DNA of 11,797 nucleotides from Clostridia bacterium (lineage in GTDB: Bacteria > Bacillota > Clostridia > Lachnospirales > WQUN01): positions 1 through 11,797 of the forward strand of contig BNUF01000070.1 in NCBI GenBank assembly GCA_025997155.1, written 5' to 3'. Made by a program: the position numbers and the translations under genes. Each line of letters opens with the position of its first letter. The first letter of the stretch is position 1. The notes below the pieces were generated by a model that was not told the origin of the DNA, did not search any database, and worked only from the letters and a program-made list of their open reading frames with translations. This document shows positions 2,737-11,797 of the stretch, in pieces.

Positions 2737-2765
2737 TTGACAATGTGAAAAGTGTGTGATAGTAT
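2737..2765 (+). promoter_or_regulatory. Sigma-A promoter of the ABC importer/nitrogenase-like operon
   Basis: A consensus TTGACA at 2737-2742 is followed after 17 bases by TAGTAT (2760-2765), preceded by TG at 2757-2758, which makes an extended -10 element. Transcription would start near 2772, giving a leader of roughly 215 bases before the first structural gene. Two further -10-like boxes downstream, TATAAT at 2819-2824 and TATACT with TG at 2865-2870, lack convincing -35 boxes. The first of them overlaps the leader ORF start. Confidence 0.75.
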
Positions 2766-2822: not shown

Positions 2823-2906
2823 ATGCTTACATATTTTACTATCTTTATTATATCCGTTGTGTGTTATACTTCGCCGACTTCCCGAAGGCGTTTGTTTTTG
2901 CGTTAA
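2823..2906 (+). CDS. Putative 27-residue leader peptide
   Basis: This short ORF has ATG at 2823 and TAA at 2904-2906. A strong Shine-Dalgarno, GAGGGGG (2808-2814), lies 8 bases upstream, an unusually good site for a chance ORF. The peptide is hydrophobic in its first 13 residues (Thr, Tyr, Phe, Ile, Val), then has a single Cys14 and Tyr15, and ends with a Ser-Arg-Arg-Arg stretch (codons TCC CGA AGG CGT, 2880-2891) and LFLR. The three Arg codons form the 5' arm of the long hairpin that precedes the terminator, a placement typical of attenuation leader peptides. No homologue is recognised. The alternatives are a small membrane peptide or a chance ORF. Confidence 0.55.
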   Translation: MLTYFTIFIISVVCYTSPTSRRRLFLR

Positions 2907-2934
2907 AAAACCGCAAACTCACGCGTGCCTTCGG
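2882..2934 (+). promoter_or_regulatory. Long leader hairpin upstream of the terminator (attenuator element)
   Basis: CCGAAGGC (2882-2889) pairs perfectly with GCCTTCGG (2927-2934). Inside it, either GTTTG (2890-2894) pairs with CAAAC (2914-2918), or TTTGCG (2897-2902) pairs with CGCAAA (2912-2917). The structure sequesters the first copy of AAACTC (2915-2920). That copy could otherwise pair with GAGTTT (2948-2953), the right arm of the terminator. This gives two mutually exclusive folds, as in an attenuator. Confidence 0.55.
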
Positions 2935-2960
2935 AAACTCTTTTACGGAGTTTCTTTTTT
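2934..2960 (+). terminator. Intrinsic terminator within the operon leader
   Basis: GAAACTC (2934-2940) and GAGTTTC (2948-2954) form a 7-bp stem with a 7-base loop, followed directly by six T residues (2955-2960). It lies 28 bases before the ABC ATPase start and downstream of the promoter at 2737-2765, so it should limit transcription into the operon unless it is disrupted. It cannot serve the upstream carboxypeptidase gene, which runs the other way. Confidence 0.7.
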
Positions 2961-2988: not shown

Positions 2989-3780
2989 ATGCTTGAAATG
3001 AAGAATTTAAGCCGCGCTTATTATATTAAGGACAAGGGGCAAAAGGTAAAGTTTCAGGCTCTTGAGAAATTTACGCTTTCGGTTTCGGACGGGGAGTTTG
3101 TTGTGATTGTGGGACCCAGCGGATGCGGAAAGTCTACGCTTCTCGATATCCTGTCGGGGCTTTACAAGTCGGACACGGGGTCTTTCAATATAGACGGCGC
3201 GGCGGTGACAGGCCCCGCGCTTGACAGGGGTTTCGTGATGCAAAATTACGCGTTGTTCCCGTGGCGTACAATCAAAAAAAATATCGAATTCGGGCTTGAG
3301 CTAAAAAAAATCCCGAAAGACGAACGCTCCCAAATAAGCAAGAATTTCATAAATCTGGTGGGGCTTAGCGGGTTTGAGAACAGGTATCCCTATGAGTTGT
3401 CGGGCGGTATGAAACAGCGTGTCGCCATTGCGCGAGCTCTCGCGTATAACCCCAGCGTACTGCTTATGGACGAACCTTTTGCCGCCGTGGACGCGCAAAC
3501 CCGCGAGCATATGCAGGACGAACTCACGCGAATCTGGCAATCGACCCAAAAGACGATAATATTTATCACTCACAGCATCGAGGAGGCGGTGCTGTTAGCC
3601 GACCGCGTAGTCGTTATGACCGAACACCCAGGCACAATCAAGGAAATCATAAATATCGACCTCCCGCGTCCGCGAAACTCAGCTTTGGTTCGAAACTCCG
3701 CCGAATACGCGGGGGCGGTAAGCGAAATCTGGAATTTACTGCACAGCGCGGACGCGAGTCTTGACAGTTCCGCGTTGTAG
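2989..3780 (+). CDS. ABC importer ATP-binding protein, NitT/TauT (SsuB/TauB) family
   Basis: This cytoplasmic ATPase powers the importer formed with the next three genes. The 263-residue length is typical of the family. Walker A is GPSGCGKST (42-50), the Q-loop is Gln85 in VMQNYALFPW, the signature is LSGGMKQR (137-144), Walker B is VLLMDEPF (157-164), and the switch His195 lies in ITHSIEEA. The PW after the Q-loop and the ITHSIEEAVLLADRVVVM segment are characteristic of nitrate/sulfonate/taurine-type importers. The ATG is preceded by AAGG and GGGG 6-12 bases upstream. It is the first structural gene of the operon, after an attenuator-like leader. The next gene's Shine-Dalgarno starts at its stop codon, so the two are co-transcribed. 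The substrate cannot be deduced from the ATPase. Confidence 0.96.
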   Translation: MLEMKNLSRAYYIKDKGQKVKFQALEKFTLSVSDGEFVVIVGPSGCGKSTLLDILSGLYKSDTGSFNIDGAAVTGPALDRGFVMQNYALFPWRTIKKNIEFGLELKKIPKDERSQISKNFINLVGLSGFENRYPYELSGGMKQRVAIARALAYNPSVLLMDEPFAAVDAQTREHMQDELTRIWQSTQKTIIFITHSIEEAVLLADRVVVMTEHPGTIKEIINIDLPRPRNSALVRNSAEYAGAVSEIWNLLHSADASLDSSAL

Positions 3781-3790
3781 GGGTGAAGCT

Positions 3791-4540
3791 ATGATAAAAA
3801 AGTTTTCGGCGATAATCGTCGTGATAGGGTTTTTTATAGTTTGGGAGATATTGGCAAAAGCGGGCGTTTTGGATTTGCAGTTCGTCCCCGCGTTCTCCAC
3901 GGTAATGAAAGAAACATGGAAAATGACAAAGACGGGCGAACTCCCGATACACGTTTTGACAAGTCTTACGCGCCTTGTCGTCGGGATACTCTCCGCTATA
4001 ATAACCGCGTTGCCGCTCGGGTTTCTGCTCGCGTACCAGTGTCCCAGGCTTGCTAAGTTTCTCACCCCGCTTTTTGTGAATCTGTCGTTTGTAAACGCCT
4101 TCACGCTAATCCCCGTGTTTATGCTGATTTTGGGAATGGGGGAGCTAAGCAAAGTCTTCATTATATACTGGGTCGTGTTGTGGCCCGCCTTGTTCTCGAC
4201 TATCGCGGGGGTTCTAAACATCGACCCCGTCGTCATAAAAGCGGCGCGGGTTATGGGGGCGCGGGGGGTTAAACTGTTTTTTTCCGTGATAATACCCGGT
4301 TGCGTGAGACGGCTTTTTATGGGTATAAAATCGTCTATATCAATGGGTTTCACGGTGCTTATCGGTGCTGAGATGCTGGGCTCAAAACACGGACTTGGCT
4401 TTATCGTGTTTGTCGCCCAAAAAAACTACAATATCCCTAGAGAATATGTGGGGATTCTGTTTATAGCGATACTGGGCGTTATAGTTTCCGTTTCACTTGA
4501 CACTATACAAAAACGCGTCGTCGTGTGGAAAGAAGGCTGA
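3791..4540 (+). CDS. ABC importer permease 1, NitT/TauT (SsuC/TauC) family
   Basis: This 249-residue integral membrane protein of the BPD-type permease family is one half of the transport channel. Hydrophobic segments appear near residues 5-24, 59-82, 100-117, 122-140, 186-197 and 219-236. The cytoplasmic EAA loop that docks on the ATPase is seen around 149-171 (AARVMGARGVKLFFSVIIPG). The ATG at 3791 was chosen over the in-frame ATG at 3761 because GGGGTG lies just upstream of it and the earlier start would run back into the ATPase gene. It sits 10 bases after the ATPase stop and 5 bases before the likely start of the second permease. It is clearly related to that permease but well diverged from it. 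Confidence 0.93.
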   Translation: MIKKFSAIIVVIGFFIVWEILAKAGVLDLQFVPAFSTVMKETWKMTKTGELPIHVLTSLTRLVVGILSAIITALPLGFLLAYQCPRLAKFLTPLFVNLSFVNAFTLIPVFMLILGMGELSKVFIIYWVVLWPALFSTIAGVLNIDPVVIKAARVMGARGVKLFFSVIIPGCVRRLFMGIKSSISMGFTVLIGAEMLGSKHGLGFIVFVAQKNYNIPREYVGILFIAILGVIVSVSLDTIQKRVVVWKEG

Positions 4541-4545
4541 AGATT

Positions 4546-5316
4546 TTGACAAAATTAAAAAGTATCATTTTCGGAAGCTTTTCGACTATTCTGTTCTTTG
4601 TGGTTTGGTATATATTGTCAAAAACGGGAGTGCTGAATCGGGGCGTTTTGCCGGACCCTCTCACCGTTATCGCGCGTTTGTTTAAGAACCTGGCGGATTT
4701 GCGAAACGGGACTCTGCCGCAGGTCGGGATATCTTTCAGGCGGGCGGGGCTTGGGTTTTTGGCGGCGTTGGGCGTCGGTTTGGTGCTCGGGGCGTTGCTC
4801 CAGACTTTTCTCAAAAAGATAAAACATATTCTCGTTCCCGTGTTCCAGCTGCTCGAACGTATGCACCCTTTCGCGCTTTTCCCCGTTTTTATGCTTTTCT
4901 GGGGCATAAGCGAAAAAAGCAAGATTATCATCGTGTTTTGGGTCGCTCTGTGGCCGATATTGTTCTACACGGCGGCGGGAATAGAGAATGTGGACACTCT
5001 TATCGTTAAGGCGGCAAAGACTATGGGCGCGGATAAAGTCACTCTGTTTTTTCGGGTAATCCTCCCCGCCGCCCTCCCCGACATATACGCGGGGGTCAAA
5101 TTCTCCGCGCAGATAGCGTTTGTGCTGATTGTATCGATTGAAATGCTTAGTTCCTCGTCGGGTATCGGATACCTTCTTATACTCGCGAAACGGAGCTACA
5201 ACCTTCCCGATTTATACTCGGGAATAATACTGGTGGCAATTCTCGGGATTGTGATGAACAAGATTTTAACGCTCGCGGAATCCCGATTGTTTTCATATAA
5301 GGAAAAGTTAATTTAA
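4546..5316 (+). CDS. ABC importer permease 2, NitT/TauT (SsuC/TauC) family
   Basis: This second membrane subunit (256 residues from the chosen start) shares with permease 1 the N-terminal pattern FFxVWxILxKxGVL and the EAA loop (KAAKTMGADKVTLFFRVILP, about 155-174). The two genes are thus an ancient tandem duplication that probably gives a heterodimeric channel. Hydrophobic segments lie near 8-26, 66-90, 108-120, 126-145, 186-200 and 222-240. The start is inferred as TTG at 4546, because AAGAAGG (4530-4536) lies 9 bases upstream. An in-frame GTG at 4525 would overlap permease 1 by 16 bases and has no visible ribosome binding site. Many NitT/TauT systems use one permease as a homodimer, so the pair is notable. 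The family call is secure, the exact start less so. Confidence 0.92.
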   Translation: MTKLKSIIFGSFSTILFFVVWYILSKTGVLNRGVLPDPLTVIARLFKNLADLRNGTLPQVGISFRRAGLGFLAALGVGLVLGALLQTFLKKIKHILVPVFQLLERMHPFALFPVFMLFWGISEKSKIIIVFWVALWPILFYTAAGIENVDTLIVKAAKTMGADKVTLFFRVILPAALPDIYAGVKFSAQIAFVLIVSIEMLSSSSGIGYLLILAKRSYNLPDLYSGIILVAILGIVMNKILTLAESRLFSYKEKLI

Positions 5317-5331
5317 AATGGAGGTTATAAA

Positions 5332-6411
5332 ATGTTAGGAAAAAAGAGTTTAGCTCTTGTACTCGCGGGGGTGCTTTTCACCTCGTGCGCACCCGCGGTA
5401 CAAACAGGCGGGGGCGCTACGCCCTCAGCTACACCCTCAGGCGGCACGCAAGCTCAGGCACCAGCCACGGGAACGGACAGTATGGCGACGCCCACGACGG
5501 ATTTGTTTCCGATTAAGACCGCCACGAGATACGATTGCACCCTTGCTCCGTATATCGTAGCCGACAAAAAAGGGTTTTTCACGGAAGAGGGCTTACAATT
5601 AGTATTCACGGGCGAATTGCCTTCATCGGAGTACATTACGAGCGTCGTCAGCGGGCTTAACGATTTCGCGGACACTCACCCCAACGCGCTTGCGCTTCAG
5701 GTATACGGCGGAGCGGACGTAAAGGCGGTGGGGCGTTCGATAATCGAGCCAGGGCCGGACGAAGACCCGCGCCTGCGCCATATGCGCTACTATGTGACAC
5801 AAGACGCGTATGACAGCGGCGTTAAAACGATTGCGGACTTGGCGAACTACAAACCGAACGAGAAACTCAAATCGGCGGGAGCTGTCAACACCTGCGAAAG
5901 TTTTATACTCGACAAGGCTCTTGACGCGAACGACGTACCGCGCGATAAACTCGAATGGATTTTGTTTGAAGAGGACATTGCGAAGATTCAGGCTCTTAAG
6001 TTGGCGCAGCTCGACATTATCGGCGTTCACCCTCCGTTCTATGACGCGGCGGTAGAGGCGGGGTTACAGCAAATCGGCGACTCGTCGGACGCGAATCTGG
6101 GCGAGGCGGCGGGAACTTACCTGTACTATTTCTCAAACGATTTTATCGCGAAGAATCCCGACAAGGTTCAGGCGTTCGTCCGCGCAATGACAAAGGCACA
6201 GCAGTACGCCAACGCGAATCGTGAAGAAACCGCGAAACTTACGGGCGAATTTATAAACCAGGAAGTAAAAGGCAACCACTACTATTCCGAAACGACAAAA
6301 ATCGACGAAGCGACAATCACCCCGTGGATTGAGGATTTGGAGAACACTGGTACTCTGCCGAAAGGCGCGGTCACGGCAAGCGACATAGTTACACATCAAT
6401 TCGAGGAGTAG
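5332..6411 (+). CDS. ABC importer solute-binding lipoprotein, NitT/TauT (NMT1-like) family
   Basis: This extracytoplasmic receptor captures the substrate and delivers it to the two permeases. The 359-residue product has a lysine-containing N-terminus, a hydrophobic core and a lipobox-like FTSC with Cys19 as the lipidation site. A low-complexity Gly/Ala/Thr/Pro linker follows (about 20-55). The mature part shows the family pattern: an entry segment APYIVADKKGFFTEEGL (72-88), a central segment around DFADTHPNALALQVYGGADVK, and GVHPPFYDAAVEAG (231-244) in the second lobe. GGAGG (5320-5324) lies 7 bases before the ATG. Its stop overlaps the Shine-Dalgarno of the nitrogenase-like alpha gene only 4 bases on, so receptor and enzyme are tightly coupled. 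The ligand is unknown. Family members bind nitrate, sulfonates, pyrimidine precursors and aromatic acids. Confidence 0.92.
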   Translation: MLGKKSLALVLAGVLFTSCAPAVQTGGGATPSATPSGGTQAQAPATGTDSMATPTTDLFPIKTATRYDCTLAPYIVADKKGFFTEEGLQLVFTGELPSSEYITSVVSGLNDFADTHPNALALQVYGGADVKAVGRSIIEPGPDEDPRLRHMRYYVTQDAYDSGVKTIADLANYKPNEKLKSAGAVNTCESFILDKALDANDVPRDKLEWILFEEDIAKIQALKLAQLDIIGVHPPFYDAAVEAGLQQIGDSSDANLGEAAGTYLYYFSNDFIAKNPDKVQAFVRAMTKAQQYANANREETAKLTGEFINQEVKGNHYYSETTKIDEATITPWIEDLENTGTLPKGAVTASDIVTHQFEE

Positions 6412-6415
6412 ACAT

Positions 6416-7972
6416 ATGGCTAATAAAGTTAAGTTAGACCTTGTCAACGTGGAAAACCGCGAAGACAGACTCGGTTCAATCATCAGCTGGGACGGGAGCG
6501 CGTCCCGGCTGGCTGAACTTTCAAAGTACGAGGCGCGGGCGCAGAAGAAAAACCGCGCCTGCGGCGGCTGCGGCGAAAACGCAGGCGGGTATTGCCGTAT
6601 TCAGGAATTCGATATGCCTTTCAATCAGCAGACAATGTGTTCGCACTCAATCGTCGCCTGTCAGATTGGAAATATTACCGACTGTATACTTATCGAACAT
6701 TCCCCGATAGGCTGCTCGGCGATTCACCCGCGTTTCAATATGGGTTATAAAATCGGGCTGGCAAGGCGCGGCAAGCCGATTGAAAGCATACGCATATTCA
6801 GCACGAACCTGCTTGAGGAGGATATGCTTTTCGGAGCGGCCGAAAAACTGCGCAGGACAATCCGCGACGCTTACGAACGGTTCGCGCCTAAAGCTATATT
6901 TTTGTCAATGTCTTGCTCGACAGCCGTTATCGGCGAGGATATCGAGGGCGTCGGGGAAGAGCTGGAGGAAGAACTGGGAATCCCCATCGTGCCTATGCAT
7001 TGTGAGGGTTTTCGGAGCAAACACTGGAGCACGGGTTTTGATATATCTCAGCACGCCGTCGTGCGGCAAATCGTGAACAAGAATCCTGAAAACAAGCAAA
7101 AAGACCTTATAAATATCGTCGCGCTGTGGGGTACGGACTACTTTACGGAAATGCTTAAACCTCTTAACCTGCGCGTCAATTATATGATTGATATGGCGAG
7201 TTTCGACGAGCTGCGCCAGGCGTCGGAGGCGGCGGCTACCGCTACTTTCTGCCACACTCTGGGTTCATATATGGCGACCGCCCTCGAGGAAGAATACGGC
7301 GTGCCGCAAATAAACGCGCCGCAGCCCTACGGAATCGCCGCCACCGACGAATGGTTACGCGCCGTGGCGAAAGTCGTCGGCAAAGAGGGCGAAATTGACG
7401 CGTATATACAGAGCGAACACGAGCGTATCGCCCCGAAGCTTGCGGAACTCCGCGAAAAGTTACAGGGAATCAAGGGTTTTGTGGCAACGGGGTCGTCCTT
7501 TGCCCACGCGATGGCGGAGGTAATCCGCGAACTCGGCGTACAGATAGACGGCTCGATAGTGTTCCACCACGACCCTGTGTATGACAGCGGTTACGAAAAT
7601 CAGGACACCCTCAAACACCTTGTGGAGCATTACGGCGACATTCCGAATTTTACCGTAAGCAAAACCCAGCAGTTCCAGTTCAGCGGGCTGTTAAAACGGG
7701 TCAACCCCGATTTCATAATCATACGCCACAACGGGCTTGCGCCTGTCGCCGCGAAACTCGGTATCCCGTCTTTCGCGATGGGAGACGAGCATTTTCCGCT
7801 GGGCTACGACGGGATTATCCGAACGGGCGAGGCGTTGTTCGAGATTCTGGCGCGTAAAAAATTCGGGCAGGTGCTCAAACGCCACGTGAAACTGCCCTAC
7901 ACGGACTGGTGGCTTGCTCAGGAGGACCAGTTCATCTTAGCGAAACACCCCGAAATTTTGGACGAAGATTAG
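6416..7972 (+). CDS. Nitrogenase-like component 1, alpha (NifD-like) subunit
   Basis: The 518-residue protein belongs to the nitrogenase component 1 / protochlorophyllide reductase superfamily. P-cluster positions of NifD are kept: Cys75 and Cys100 (EHSPIGC) match NifD Cys62 and Cys88, and Cys167 (SMSCSTAVIGEDIE) matches Cys154. CEGFR (196-200) matches the same motif at NifD 183-187. Cys279, in FCHTLGSYMATALEEEYGVP, aligns with the FeMo-cofactor ligand Cys275. Counterparts of Arg96, Gln191 and His195 are Asn108, Trp204 and Phe208. The His442 region reads AMGDEHF, with Gly at the aligned place and His459 three residues on. A true N2-fixing NifD is therefore unlikely. An extra cysteine group (Cys49, 52, 60) precedes the core. 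GAGGAG (6403-6408) overlaps the receptor gene's stop. The alignments are by eye. The reaction and substrate are unknown; it may resemble methylthio-alkane reductase or other non-N2 nitrogenase-like enzymes. Confidence 0.88.
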   Translation: MANKVKLDLVNVENREDRLGSIISWDGSASRLAELSKYEARAQKKNRACGGCGENAGGYCRIQEFDMPFNQQTMCSHSIVACQIGNITDCILIEHSPIGCSAIHPRFNMGYKIGLARRGKPIESIRIFSTNLLEEDMLFGAAEKLRRTIRDAYERFAPKAIFLSMSCSTAVIGEDIEGVGEELEEELGIPIVPMHCEGFRSKHWSTGFDISQHAVVRQIVNKNPENKQKDLINIVALWGTDYFTEMLKPLNLRVNYMIDMASFDELRQASEAAATATFCHTLGSYMATALEEEYGVPQINAPQPYGIAATDEWLRAVAKVVGKEGEIDAYIQSEHERIAPKLAELREKLQGIKGFVATGSSFAHAMAEVIRELGVQIDGSIVFHHDPVYDSGYENQDTLKHLVEHYGDIPNFTVSKTQQFQFSGLLKRVNPDFIIIRHNGLAPVAAKLGIPSFAMGDEHFPLGYDGIIRTGEALFEILARKKFGQVLKRHVKLPYTDWWLAQEDQFILAKHPEILDED

Positions 7973-7998
7973 AAATAAAGCTTTGGAGGACTATATAA

Positions 7999-9324
7999 AT
8001 GTCAAACTCAATACTGCACCCCCACTATGGCTGCGCAATCGGAGCGGCGTACACCGTCGCGGCAATACCGAAAGCCGTGCCGATAGCGAACAGCGGGCCC
8101 GGCTGCGTGGACAACCAATACTGTATGCTCGCGTCGGGGAACGGGTTTCAGGGCGCGGGGTTCGCGGGCGGCGGAGCTATGCCCTCCGCCAACCTCGGCG
8201 AAAAGGAAATAGTTTTCGGCGGGATACCGCGCCTTGACTTGCTCGTTAAATCGACGCTCAAGATAATCGACGGGGATTTGTTCGTAATCCTCTCGGGCTG
8301 TTCGAGCGAACTTATCGGCGACGACATTGTAGCTCTCGCCAAGGAATATCAGGAAAAAGGAAAACCTGTCGTGGCGGTTGAGGCGGCGGGATTTAAGGGC
8401 AACAACCTTGTCGGGCACGAACTTGCGCTTGAAGCCATAATCGACCAGTATGTCGGCGATTATGACGGCGAAAGAACGCGGGGGCTTATCAACGTGTTTT
8501 CGGAAGTGCCGTATTTCAACACGAACTGGCGCGGGGATTTAATCGAGCTAAAGAGGGTTCTCGAGGGCGCGGGGTTTGAGGTGAACATACTTTTCGGACC
8601 GCAAAGTGCTGGCGTGTCGGAATGGAAAACTATCCCGAAGGCGCAGTTTAACCTTCTCGTTTCGCCGTGGGTCGGGCTTTCCACAGTCGAGTATCTTAAA
8701 GAAAAATACGGGCAGGATTATCTGCATATCCCGATACTCCCAATCGGCGAGGAGGCGACGAGCGGGTTTTTGCGCCAAGTCGTCGAATTTGCGGGAATCG
8801 ACAAGGAAAAATCCGAAAAGTTTATCGCCAAAGAGGCGGATGAGTATTACTACTTTTTGGAGCATTTTTCAGAGTTCTTTTCGGAATACTGGTACGGCTT
8901 GCCGTCACGTTTCGCGACAGTCGGCGACAGCGCGTACAACATCGCCGTCACGAAATTTTTAGCCGGCCAAATCGGGCTTATCCCAATTAAGCAAATTATC
9001 ACGGATAACCCGCCGCAAAAGTACCGAGCGGGAATCGCGAAACTTTACGAAAACTTGTCAGAGGGGATTTCCGCCGAGGCGTTGTTTATCGAGGACGGTT
9101 ACGAAGTCGAAAAAGAAGTCGAGAACGCGCCTTTTTGCGGGAGCGTGCCGCTTATTATAGGGTCGTCGTGGGAGAAGGACGCCGCCGTTAAACTGGGCGG
9201 GCTGCTTATCGAAACGACGACCCCCGTAACGGAAGAATTGGTTATAAACAGAAGTTATATCGGATACAAGGGAGCGTTAAGCCTTCTCGAGAAAATCTAT
9301 ACTTTGACGGTAGGCGGAAAATAG
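7999..9324 (+). CDS. Nitrogenase-like component 1, beta (NifK-like) subunit
   Basis: This 441-residue partner of the preceding protein should form an alpha2-beta2 enzyme with it. Cys12 (HPHYGC), Cys36 (NSGPGC) and Cys101 (ILSGCSSELIGDDI) match the spacing of the three P-cluster cysteines of NifK (70, 95, 153). A further Cys42 follows. SGCSSELIGDDI corresponds to the conserved C-x-x-x-[LVM]-IGDD element. The protein is shorter than NifK (about 520) because it begins only 11 residues before the first cluster cysteine and lacks the long NifK N-terminal arm. GGAGGA (7985-7990) lies 8 bases before the ATG, and 26 bases separate it from the alpha gene. It is the last gene of the operon, with a terminator right after the stop. 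NifE/NifN-like scaffold or other nitrogenase-like roles cannot be excluded by sequence alone. Confidence 0.87.
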   Translation: MSNSILHPHYGCAIGAAYTVAAIPKAVPIANSGPGCVDNQYCMLASGNGFQGAGFAGGGAMPSANLGEKEIVFGGIPRLDLLVKSTLKIIDGDLFVILSGCSSELIGDDIVALAKEYQEKGKPVVAVEAAGFKGNNLVGHELALEAIIDQYVGDYDGERTRGLINVFSEVPYFNTNWRGDLIELKRVLEGAGFEVNILFGPQSAGVSEWKTIPKAQFNLLVSPWVGLSTVEYLKEKYGQDYLHIPILPIGEEATSGFLRQVVEFAGIDKEKSEKFIAKEADEYYYFLEHFSEFFSEYWYGLPSRFATVGDSAYNIAVTKFLAGQIGLIPIKQIITDNPPQKYRAGIAKLYENLSEGISAEALFIEDGYEVEKEVENAPFCGSVPLIIGSSWEKDAAVKLGGLLIETTTPVTEELVINRSYIGYKGALSLLEKIYTLTVGGK

Positions 9325-9325
9325 G

Positions 9326-9376
9326 AATTAAAAAATCTCTCGTGAATGAAAAATATTCACAAGAGATTTTTTAATT
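9326..9376 (+). terminator. Strong terminator ending the importer/nitrogenase-like operon
   Basis: A perfect 15-bp stem (9326-9340 with 9362-9376) is followed inward by one C-A mismatch and six more pairs (9342-9347 with 9355-9360). The A-rich left and T-rich right arms give a U tract on either strand, so it can work in both directions. It begins two bases after the beta-subunit stop and insulates the operon from rpoB. Confidence 0.9.
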
Positions 9377-9499: not shown

Positions 9500-11797
9500 A
9501 TGGAAGACGAAAAAACTACAAAACCCGCACAGACTCTTGAGGCTAAAAGGGTTAAACTGGGGCGGAACTCACGCGTAAGCTATTCGCGTATCGATGAGGC
9601 GTTAGAGATGCCGAACCTTATCGAGATTCAAAAGGAAAGCTACCAGTGGTTTCTTGACGAGGGTCTTTACGAGGTGTTCGAGGATATTTCGCCGATAACC
9701 GATTACAGCGGCAACTTAATCCTCGAGTTTGTGGGTTACACGCTTGACAACGAACCGAAATACTCCATAGAACAATGCAAGGAACGCGACGCTACATATG
9801 CCGCGCCGCTCCGCGTGAAAGCCCGCCTGCGCCACAAAGAGAACGACGAAATCAAGGAGCAGGGCATTTTTATGGGCGATTTCCCGCTTATGACCGACAC
9901 GGGTACGTTCATCATAAACGGAGCGGAACGCGTAATCGTAAGTCAGCTCGTGCGTTCGCCCGGTATCTATTACGGGCTTGACTACGACAAATTCGGCAAA
10001 AAGATAATCACCTCGACGGTAATGCCTGGGCGAGGCGCGTGGCTTGAATACGAAACGGACTCAAACGATATTTTCAGCGTCCGCGTGGACAGAACCCGCA
10101 AAATCCCCGTGACCGTGCTCTTGCGTTCTTTCGGGCTCGGCACGGACGAGGAAATAATGGATATGTTCGGCGACGACCCGAAACTTTTGGCGACTCTCGA
10201 AAAAGACATAAGCAACAACCGCGAGGAAGGGCTTGTGGAACTGTACAAGCGTATCCGCCCGGGCGAGCCGCCTACCCCAGAAAACGCGGAATCTCTGTTA
10301 AACAGTATGTTCTTTGACCACAAACGCTATGACTTGGCGAAAGTCGGGCGTTACAAGTTTAACAAAAAATTACATCTAAGGAACAGAATAAGGGGCGCGG
10401 CTCTATCGCAGGACGTTATCTCGCCCGACGGCGAGTGTATCGCCGTGGCGGGGACGGTCGTTACCGACGCGGTTGCGAACGAAATCCAGGATTCGGGCGT
10501 TATCGCCTGCTATGTAAACGGCAAGGACGCGTCAAACGACGATATTGAGATTAAAGTTCTCACCAATCGAATGGTAAATATTGACAATTATCTAAAAATC
10601 TATGGCTTATCCGCTAAGTCACTTAAAATAAAAGAGCCTGTATACTACCCCGAACTTATTAAAATTTTTGAGGAATATAACGAGAACGCGTCGGGCAACG
10701 TTAAAGAACTTGCCGAAATCATCAAAAAACGCGCCTCGAAGTTAGTGCCGAAATGCATCGTCTATGAAGATATTTTCGCCTCCATAAACTATGTTATGCA
10801 CCTTGAGTACGGCTACGGCAACAAGGACGACATCGACCACCTCGGAAACAGAAGAATCCGCGCCGTGGGCGAACTTTTGCAGAACCAGTTCCGCGTGGGT
10901 TTGACGCGGCTTGAACGTGTCGTTCGCGAGCGTATGAACATACAGGATTTGGAAATCGTTACTCCGCAAACTCTTATAAATATCCGCCCCGTGACAGCCG
11001 CTATAAAGGAATTTTTTGGGAGCAGCCAGTTGTCGCAGTTTATGGACCAGACAAACCCCCTAGGCGAGCTTAACCACAAACGCCGTCTTTCGGCGCTTGG
11101 GCCGGGCGGACTTTCCCGCGACCGCGCGGGTTTTGAGGTACGCGACGTTCACAGTTCTCATTACAGCCGTATGTGCCTTATCGAGACTCCCGAGGGTCCT
11201 AACATCGGGCTTATTAACTCGCTTGCGACATACGCCCGTATCAACGAGTACGGTTTTATAGAAGCTCCATACCGCGTGGTTGACAAAACAGGCGAAAAAC
11301 CCGTCGTAACAAACGAGTTCGTGTATATCACGGCGGACGAGGAAGAAAACCACATTTGCGCTCAGGCGAACGAACCTCTTGACGCGGCGGGGCATTTCCT
11401 CAACAAAAACGTGCTGGGACGCAAACGGGAGGAAATTTTTAAGGTCGACCCGTCCCGCATCGACTTAATGGACGTGTCGCCGAAACAGATAGTTTCCGTG
11501 GCGACCGCGCTTATCCCCTTTTTAGGCAACGACGACGTTACACGCGCCCTTATGGGGTCTAATATGCAGCGTCAGGCAGTGCCGCTTTTGACGACGCAAT
11601 CCCCCGTAATCGGGACGGGTATGGAATACAAGACCGCCAACGATTCGGGCGTCGTCGCAATCGCTAAGGAGGCGGGCGTCGTTGCGCGTGTTTCCGCGTC
11701 GGAAGTCCAGATACGCGAAGAATCGGGCAAACTCAACAAATACAACCTAACGAAATTTTTACGGAGCAACCAAGGCACTTGCATAAATCAACGCCCG
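9500..11797 (+). CDS. rpoB: DNA-directed RNA polymerase beta subunit (3' end outside window)
   Basis: RpoB forms, with RpoC, the catalytic cleft of RNA polymerase. The ATG at 9500 opens a frame that stays open for 766 codons to the right edge. It starts [20 protein letters not shown] and enters the canonical protrusion domain ([25 protein letters not shown]). The rifampicin-pocket segment ([17 protein letters not shown], 507-523) falls on the same residue numbers as in E. coli. Gln513, Asp516, His526, Arg529 and Ser531 are all the drug-sensitive type. [24 protein letters not shown] follows. The polymerase active-site residues further on lie outside the window. The gene has its own promoter and is not preceded by rplJ-rplL, its usual upstream neighbours. 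The upstream gene is the nitrogenase-like beta subunit. Confidence 0.98.

Follow-up and report, generated by a model that had tools for sequence, protein, structure and literature searches.

What is a complete importer of the NitT/TauT class doing in one operon with a pair of nitrogenase-like proteins? The question is raised by an 11,797-nucleotide stretch of DNA from a Clostridia bacterium (Lachnospirales, WQUN01), referred to here as the window, which is one entire contig (BNUF01000070.1, C70 in our numbering) of an assembly of 3.05 Mb in 502 contigs that is 77% complete. Six open reading frames (ORFs) on the + strand encode an ABC ATPase, two permeases, a substrate-binding protein (SBP) and the alpha (D) and beta (K) subunits of the pair. 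An earlier, sequence-only reading had placed these genes in one operon with gaps of 4-26 bases, and both the ORFs, which lie where it had put them, and the Pfam matches agree: with the likely start codons the gaps are 10, 5, 15, 4 and 26 bases, and the six proteins exceed the Pfam cut-offs for ABC_tran, BPD_transp_1 (twice), NMT1 and Oxidored_nitro (twice). The answer that we favour, and consider probable though far from certain, is that a pair of the methylthio-alkane reductase (Mar) type is served by a dedicated importer, so that a small sulfur compound would be captured and its C-S bond reductively cleaved.

Compared with solved structures, D matched MarD of Rhodospirillum rubrum best (E 5.3e-196; runner-up 5.6e-35) and K matched MarK of the same species (E 9.7e-160; runner-up 1e-16). 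The Mar structure paper sets out the P-cluster ligands, the [Fe8S9C] cluster ligands C270 and H429 and the residues around that cluster, and describes R428-H429 as a possible hallmark of Mar (PMC12552129). We compared nine MarD residues (C270, H429, R428, C73, Q74, H194, W195, F199 and H375 in R. rubrum numbering), and all nine are kept in the window D, as C279, H438, R437, C82, Q83, H203, W204, F208 and H384. The six P-cluster cysteines are also all present, as C75, C100 and C167 of D and C12, C36 and C101 of K. A 99-row tree of D, made by a quick method, placed R. rubrum MarD and 81 close relatives in one group (SH-aLRT 100), and in a tree of 46 rows, 32 of them taken from the 99 and 14 new, the group including the window D and MarD was supported at 100/100; both trees hold one characterised Mar and are without IsrD, NfaD, CfbD or Bch rows. 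By these sequence comparisons D/K is a methylthio-alkane-reductase-type pair.

A true but divergent nitrogenase would share the same fold family and the conserved P-cluster cysteines, and is nonetheless hardly conceivable here. The nifD model gave the window D 133.4 of 653.55 bits and the nifK model gave K 59 of 427.3, the NifD-like rows (L137 and L138) fell far outside the MarD group in both trees, the loop of the R428-H429 type is present, and NifB, NifE and NifN were not found in the 77% complete assembly. Nitrogen fixation was rejected on the nifD score, the residues and the trees, and the proposal of the sequence-only reading, a nitrogenase-like reductase acting on something other than N2, is supported by a pair that lies outside NifD and groups with MarD in both trees. 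Another candidate that was dropped is a clade-specific loss of an N-terminal cysteine of MarD: C49, C52 and C60 of the window D, shifted by an alignment gap, correspond by eye to C42, C46 and C54 of R. rubrum MarD, a trio to which the portion of the Mar structure paper used here gives no role (PMC12552129).

The importer is a complete one of the NitT/TauT class, with ATPase, permeases and an SBP of the NMT1 class (from Pfam and the SBP fold) whose N terminus carries a lipobox-like LFTSC. Among the NCBIfam models the ATPase matched SaoA best (265.8 of 360 bits; the taurine ATPase, 246.1 of 357), the permeases matched SaoP best (112.2 and 118.4 of 295), and the SBP reached 54.6 of 163.5 bits with SsuA_fam; all of these matches, as well as those of the TauB and SsuC types, are below cut-off. 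What sets the SBP family apart is a set of cysteine and histidine residues: all 52 aligned SBPs, taken from 108 search matches, share C69, H150, C188, H233 and H316, and 51 of the 52 have H116. SBPs of another importer kind found near D genes (cluster c7) are without these five residues, and those of loci L162 and L163, which belong to another D clade, keep only H150, C188 and H233. The AlphaFold2 model of the SBP (mean pLDDT 88.4) has the NitT/TauT SBP fold, with C69, H116, C188 and H233 at or just ahead of helix starts, and helix starts in this fold face the cleft. We infer from the secondary structure of the model that the Cys/His residues line the cleft. Because of this set, the ligand is suggested to be soft or metal-assisted rather than a plain sulfonate; sulfonate binders are not known to have such residues. 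The ligand could not be named from the fold, as binders of nitrate, bicarbonate, sulfonate, taurine and a thiamin precursor matched alike; the top hit (Z 26.9) was a Staphylococcus aureus SBP from a structure with zinc, level with nitrate and bicarbonate binders, followed lower down by SsuA (Z 24.9) and TauA (Z 22.7). Nor could it be named from sequence, the matches to the PDB being weak (best E 5.5e-4).

The unlikeness of these Cys/His residues to sulfonate binders counts against a sulfonate system, in which a sulfonate such as isethionate or taurine would be imported and the pair would release sulfite from it. Such a system would suit the class of the importer and its SsuA_fam, TauB-type and SsuC-type matches, below cut-off as these are, and the genome has a sulfite-reductase-like gene above the PF01077 cut-off. 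There is also a precedent in Isr of Rhodobacter capsulatus (IsrBHDK with SsuCAB), likewise a group-IV nitrogenase-like enzyme with a NitT/TauT-class importer for sulfur: Isr requires SsuCAB, cells that lose the transporter no longer grow on isethionate, and the trait can be moved to another host with both gene sets combined (PMC11423573). However, IsrD is reported to retain only one of the three P-cluster cysteines and no equivalent of Cys275 (PMC11423573), whereas the window D has C75, C100, C167 and C279, and unlike SsuCAB the window importer has an SBP under the SsuA_fam cut-off with a Cys/His set of its own. We therefore regard a sulfonate system as unlikely.

The same invariant residues would fit an importer that takes up metal ions or organometal(loid) compounds, with a reductase that uses the metal or cuts a carbon-metal bond. 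The highest Z of the zinc SBP points the same way, tied as it is with nitrate and bicarbonate binders, and so do the best matches of the ATPase and both permeases, SaoA and SaoP, which name the ABC transporter of the selenocysteine-assisted organometallic (SAO) system (PMC13188914); yet all of these matches are below the curated cut-offs (NF040729, NF040733), and no match to SaoB is listed among the NCBIfam results for the window. Genes for a heavy-metal P-type ATPase and a corrinoid methyltransferase adjoin the SBP at one further locus (L175). All the Mar residues are kept, however, the neighbours of the relatives are methionine and cysteine genes, and the SBP is common to several D clades, so that a metal substrate seems to us rather unlikely. 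Locus L175 (591-13237) as a whole joins the SBP importer to a D/K pair that is less closely related, along with genes of the cysK type, for a corrinoid protein, for a methyltransferase of the MtaA/CmuA type and for the P-type ATPase, and L176 has, by likeness, a similar gene set.

We infer that the importer feeds its substrate to the enzyme, and its linkage to D/K in other genomes bears on this. Genes closely related to D occur commonly, one scan giving 251 stretches that carry one, of which 78 records were kept, many of them titled with rumen sample names. The SBP of the window type occurs in five of these 78 loci (L017, L018, L019, L027 and L051), with all four importer genes together in L018, L019 and L027; in L051 an ATPase follows the NifH-like gene (H), and in L017 no ATPase was seen. 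The carriers form one D clade, supported at 92 in the 99-row tree and at 99/97 in the 46-row tree together with L174, which is absent from the larger tree, and this clade includes rows titled Family XIII and Synergistaceae. The other importer kind (cluster c7), with one permease and an SsuA-like SBP, is represented by that SBP in 23 of the 78 loci. Counted over the 77 loci with an intact D, a same-strand SBP lies no more than 5 kb away in 28, and SBP, ATPase and permease are together in 17; where 5 kb is available on both sides of D (n=42), the counts are 18 and 12. The profile behind the 77-locus count was built from SBPs of the same loci, and the count therefore leans towards them. The locus left out was L021, whose D gene (10001-11593) is broken across two frames, as a disrupted gene or through a mistake in the sequencing.

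Searches that started from the SBP only were made in 391 genomes of the class, including the own genome (E 1e-50; 7 other genomes found), and in 398 genomes of the phylum (E 1e-45; 6 others), two samples that partly overlap. D and K were present in 13 of the 16 regions around the SBP matches of these 13 genomes, the exceptions being L178, L194 and L197. Counted by genome, D/K lies within about 6 kb of the SBP in 12 of 13: L178 and L197 come from genomes in which a further region does contain the pair, and the one genome with no D/K near its SBP (G565) has that SBP next to a contig end. Eleven of the 12 have a D or K no more than about 3.2 kb away, and in G832 the distance is about 6.2 kb; in G526 (L199) the SBP and D/K are on differing strands. 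All 13 genomes carry component-1 genes, with 4 to 28 PF00148 matches each, and from these counts about 1 of 13 (0.75-0.94) would be expected to have D/K near the SBP by chance. G381, G405 and G832 had 28, 27 and 24 such matches.

This linkage is what speaks against mere neighbours, where Mar would salvage internal by-products and the importer would be a general sulfur supply. R. rubrum Mar does work in methionine salvage (PMC12552129) and many mar loci are without such an importer, but in 12 of the 13 genomes found by searching with the SBP alone D/K lies nearby, and the carriers form a D clade; we consider the absence of a common substrate quite improbable. Beyond Mar, all 14 D rows beside the SBP family keep the three P-cluster cysteines and C270. 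These D genes come from several clades, the SBP label needing 7 changes on the 46-row tree, and therefore the pairing with nitrogenase-like reductases is wider than Mar. It is possible, although we regard it as doubtful, that the SBP family acts as the specialised receptor of an entire branch of these reductases, taking soft sulfur-bound or metal-bound ligands in its Cys/His cleft and passing them to whatever nitrogenase-like enzyme its host has, so that these would be importer-fed enzymes that cut C-S or C-metal bonds rather than serve internal salvage. A different arrangement is seen in L162 and L163 (family genomes G059 and G058), in the order cysK-ATPase-D-K-SBP-permease-H-NifB, where the ATPase is 63-65% identical to that of the window and the SBP only 27%.

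Returning to Mar with a dedicated importer, the genes beside the relatives point towards sulfur metabolism. Recurrent neighbours in the 78 loci are H, a NifB-like radical SAM protein, a PF02579 protein and NitT/TauT importers, and further cystathionine lyase-type, cysteine/cystathionine synthase-type and O-acetylhomoserine sulfhydrylase (OAHS) genes. OAHS is above the TIGR01326 cut-off in L015, L017 and L020 and below it in L055, and L017, a locus of the window type, has the order permeases-SBP-D-K-H-OAHS. The own genome has a second D (L013:12087-14417, on contig C53), 41% identical to the window D, and the best matches beside it are an mccB-type lyase and a cystathionine beta-synthase, both below cut-off. 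At the end of contig C218 lies part of a second OAHS, which has 73% identity to the one in L020. The conserved Mar residues, and the methionine and cysteine genes that stand beside the relatives, favour an organic sulfur compound as substrate. At L013, a K fragment is inverted at the contig end, as a misassembly or an inversion.

The operon has no NifH-like gene, and none is found in the window. The sequence-only reading had expected the electron donor elsewhere in the genome, and a full NifH-like protein was indeed found on contig C25: among 11 matches to PF00142 it is the one full, strong match (421 bits, E 2.1e-126), the other ten reaching at most 37.2 bits. It is above the TIGR01287 nifH cut-off, and its gene stands among unrelated genes. 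In the H tree it falls within a group of 54 H proteins supported at 96/98, nearly all from loci with a Mar-type or related D. Where the SBP is of the window type (five of the 78 loci), H lies directly 3' of K. That one H may serve several pairs has been proposed for Heliophilum (PMC9147875), and a termite-gut spirochete has been described whose group-IV genes are scattered, a cysteine synthase adjoining nifDK (PMC13067680).

A number of observations weigh against a Mar-type pair fed by its own importer. The linkage that the sequence-only reading called for is present in other genomes, yet in 49 of the 77 close relatives a same-strand SBP is missing from the 5 kb around D, and SBP genes are only about 2.8 times as dense near D (28 in 775.5 kb) as farther off (6 in 462.9 kb). 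Only 3 of the 14 D rows beside the SBP family keep all nine of the Mar residues. The link to OAHS and trans-sulfuration lies on other contigs or in relatives and not in the window. The genome also has a sulfate-assimilation cluster on contig C48 (L155:910-9000), with aprA, cysD and cysN above cut-offs together with an OAHS-like gene and the sulfite-reductase-like gene, and organic sulfur is therefore probably one source among others; this cluster continues with ThiF-like and JAB-like genes, named by eye. As for the donor, H is outside the operon, the branching of the C25 protein inside its group is not resolved, and the group includes one H beside a nifD-like gene (L138). Finally, NifB-type genes, for which the sequence-only reading had proposed a search, were not detected in this incomplete assembly, neither NifB nor a PF02579 gene being found, and a NifB match is present in 49 of 50 other genomes with a close D, representing 50 of the 78 loci (across the radical SAM part in 47, above the curated cut-off in 8). 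Within the family the count is 6 of 6 other genomes carrying a D. We read the absence of NifB as sequence probably missing from the assembly.

With these points in mind, we propose the following working mechanism. The SBP would deliver a small sulfur compound through the two permeases; the NifH on C25 would pass electrons, with ATP, to the P-cluster; and the [Fe8S9C] cluster, held by C279 and H438 and made by a NifB whose gene was not detected in the assembly, would cut the C-S bond. Released methanethiol might then enter methionine by OAHS, and cysteine could follow from the methionine route by reverse trans-sulfuration. The known substrates of R. rubrum Mar are small and uncharged. Together with the presence of a dedicated importer, this suggests a charged or otherwise impermeable compound.

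From sulfur compounds Mar itself liberates methane, ethane or ethylene, and its metal clusters are of nitrogenase grade (PMC12552129). With MarBHDK of R. rubrum (PDB 9FMG and 9D9U; PMC12552129) the window shares the D/K sequence, the P-cluster cysteines, the [Fe8S9C] ligands, the active-site residues and the position in the trees. It differs in that H is outside the operon, that MarB was not found in the 77% complete assembly, and that a four-gene importer is joined to the pair. MarHDK-like genes have also been described near type I mlp methyltransferase clusters, with sulfur and methyltransferase neighbours as at L175; these clusters differ from the window in their importer, the part of that paper used here naming methionine transporters (PMC10418091). 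Mar and an importer-fed sulfur reductase (Isr) are thus already published, and what we have not found in the literature searched is the SBP family and its recurrent pairing. Nor did these searches give an account of this importer together with Mar genes, although a mention is possible in North et al. 2020 (Science), on the discovery of Mar, or in Haft and Gwadz, on the SAO system.

The positions of the genes and signals are collected in Table 1. The leader folds with z -2.5, 2 of 200 shuffles being equally good, and it might be an attenuator. It contains the motif AAACTC twice, and an alternative pairing with the terminator arm is possible. The terminator pattern scan lists 16 sites in the window versus 9.5 in shuffles, and the promoter scan 15 versus 6.6, so that the promoter-like site is weak evidence. 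The sequence-only reading had bounded the operon by a leader terminator and a very strong end terminator: the first stands as a terminator-like hairpin on the + strand, and the second is only likely, because the pattern scan calls a terminator at 9328-9374 on the minus strand only. A known riboswitch in the leader was rejected, as no Rfam family reached the gathering level in the window (five weak matches were far below their gathering scores); in L017, L018, L019, L027, L051, L162 and L163 only 5S rRNA and tRNA were found.

Table 1. Features of the operon and its flanks in the 11,797-nucleotide window.
Feature	Position	Strand	Evidence
D-Ala-D-Ala carboxypeptidase-like gene	1498-2679	minus	5' flank of operon; named by eye from translation
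Promoter-like site TTGACA, 17, TAGTAT	2737..2765	+	10/12 consensus letters
Leader, two hairpins, second terminator-like at 2933-2955	2879..2955	+	folding versus shuffles
NitT/TauT-class ABC ATPase	2989..3780	+	ABC_tran above Pfam cut-off
Permease 1	3791..4540	+	BPD_transp_1 68.4 bits; listed ORF start TTG 3761, likely ATG 3791
Permease 2	4546..5316	+	BPD_transp_1 76.5 bits; listed start GTG 4525, likely TTG 4546
Substrate-binding lipoprotein (SBP), NMT1 class, Cys/His-rich family	5332..6411	+	NMT1 59.8 bits
MarD-type alpha subunit (D)	6416..7972	+	best match 9fmg_A, E 5.3e-196; residues; trees
MarK-type beta subunit (K)	7999..9324	+	best match 9d9u_C, E 9.7e-160; P-cluster C12, C36, C101
Long end hairpin, likely terminator	9328..9374	+	-24.3 kcal/mol, z -8.5, 0/200 shuffles
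rpoB	9500 onward		3' flank of operon; named by eye from translation

A foreign composition of the operon was also considered and rejected. The carboxypeptidase gene, mutS and rpoB have a GC content of 0.51-0.54 and a GC at third codon positions (GC3) of 0.61-0.65; the importer has a GC content of 0.50 and D/K of 0.53, with a GC3 of 0.58-0.65. Recent transfer is therefore not indicated, although among 38 genomes of the family this one alone has a D with more than 44% identity. On contig C186 of the same genome, one 102-amino-acid frame stands at both ends in inverted order and also at one end of C114; it is a repeat or an assembly artefact.

An importer tied to nitrogenase-like enzymes would mean that some of these enzymes act on compounds from outside the cell. 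For the many uncharacterised nitrogenase-like enzymes, the question of the substrate would then become a binding assay on one soluble protein.

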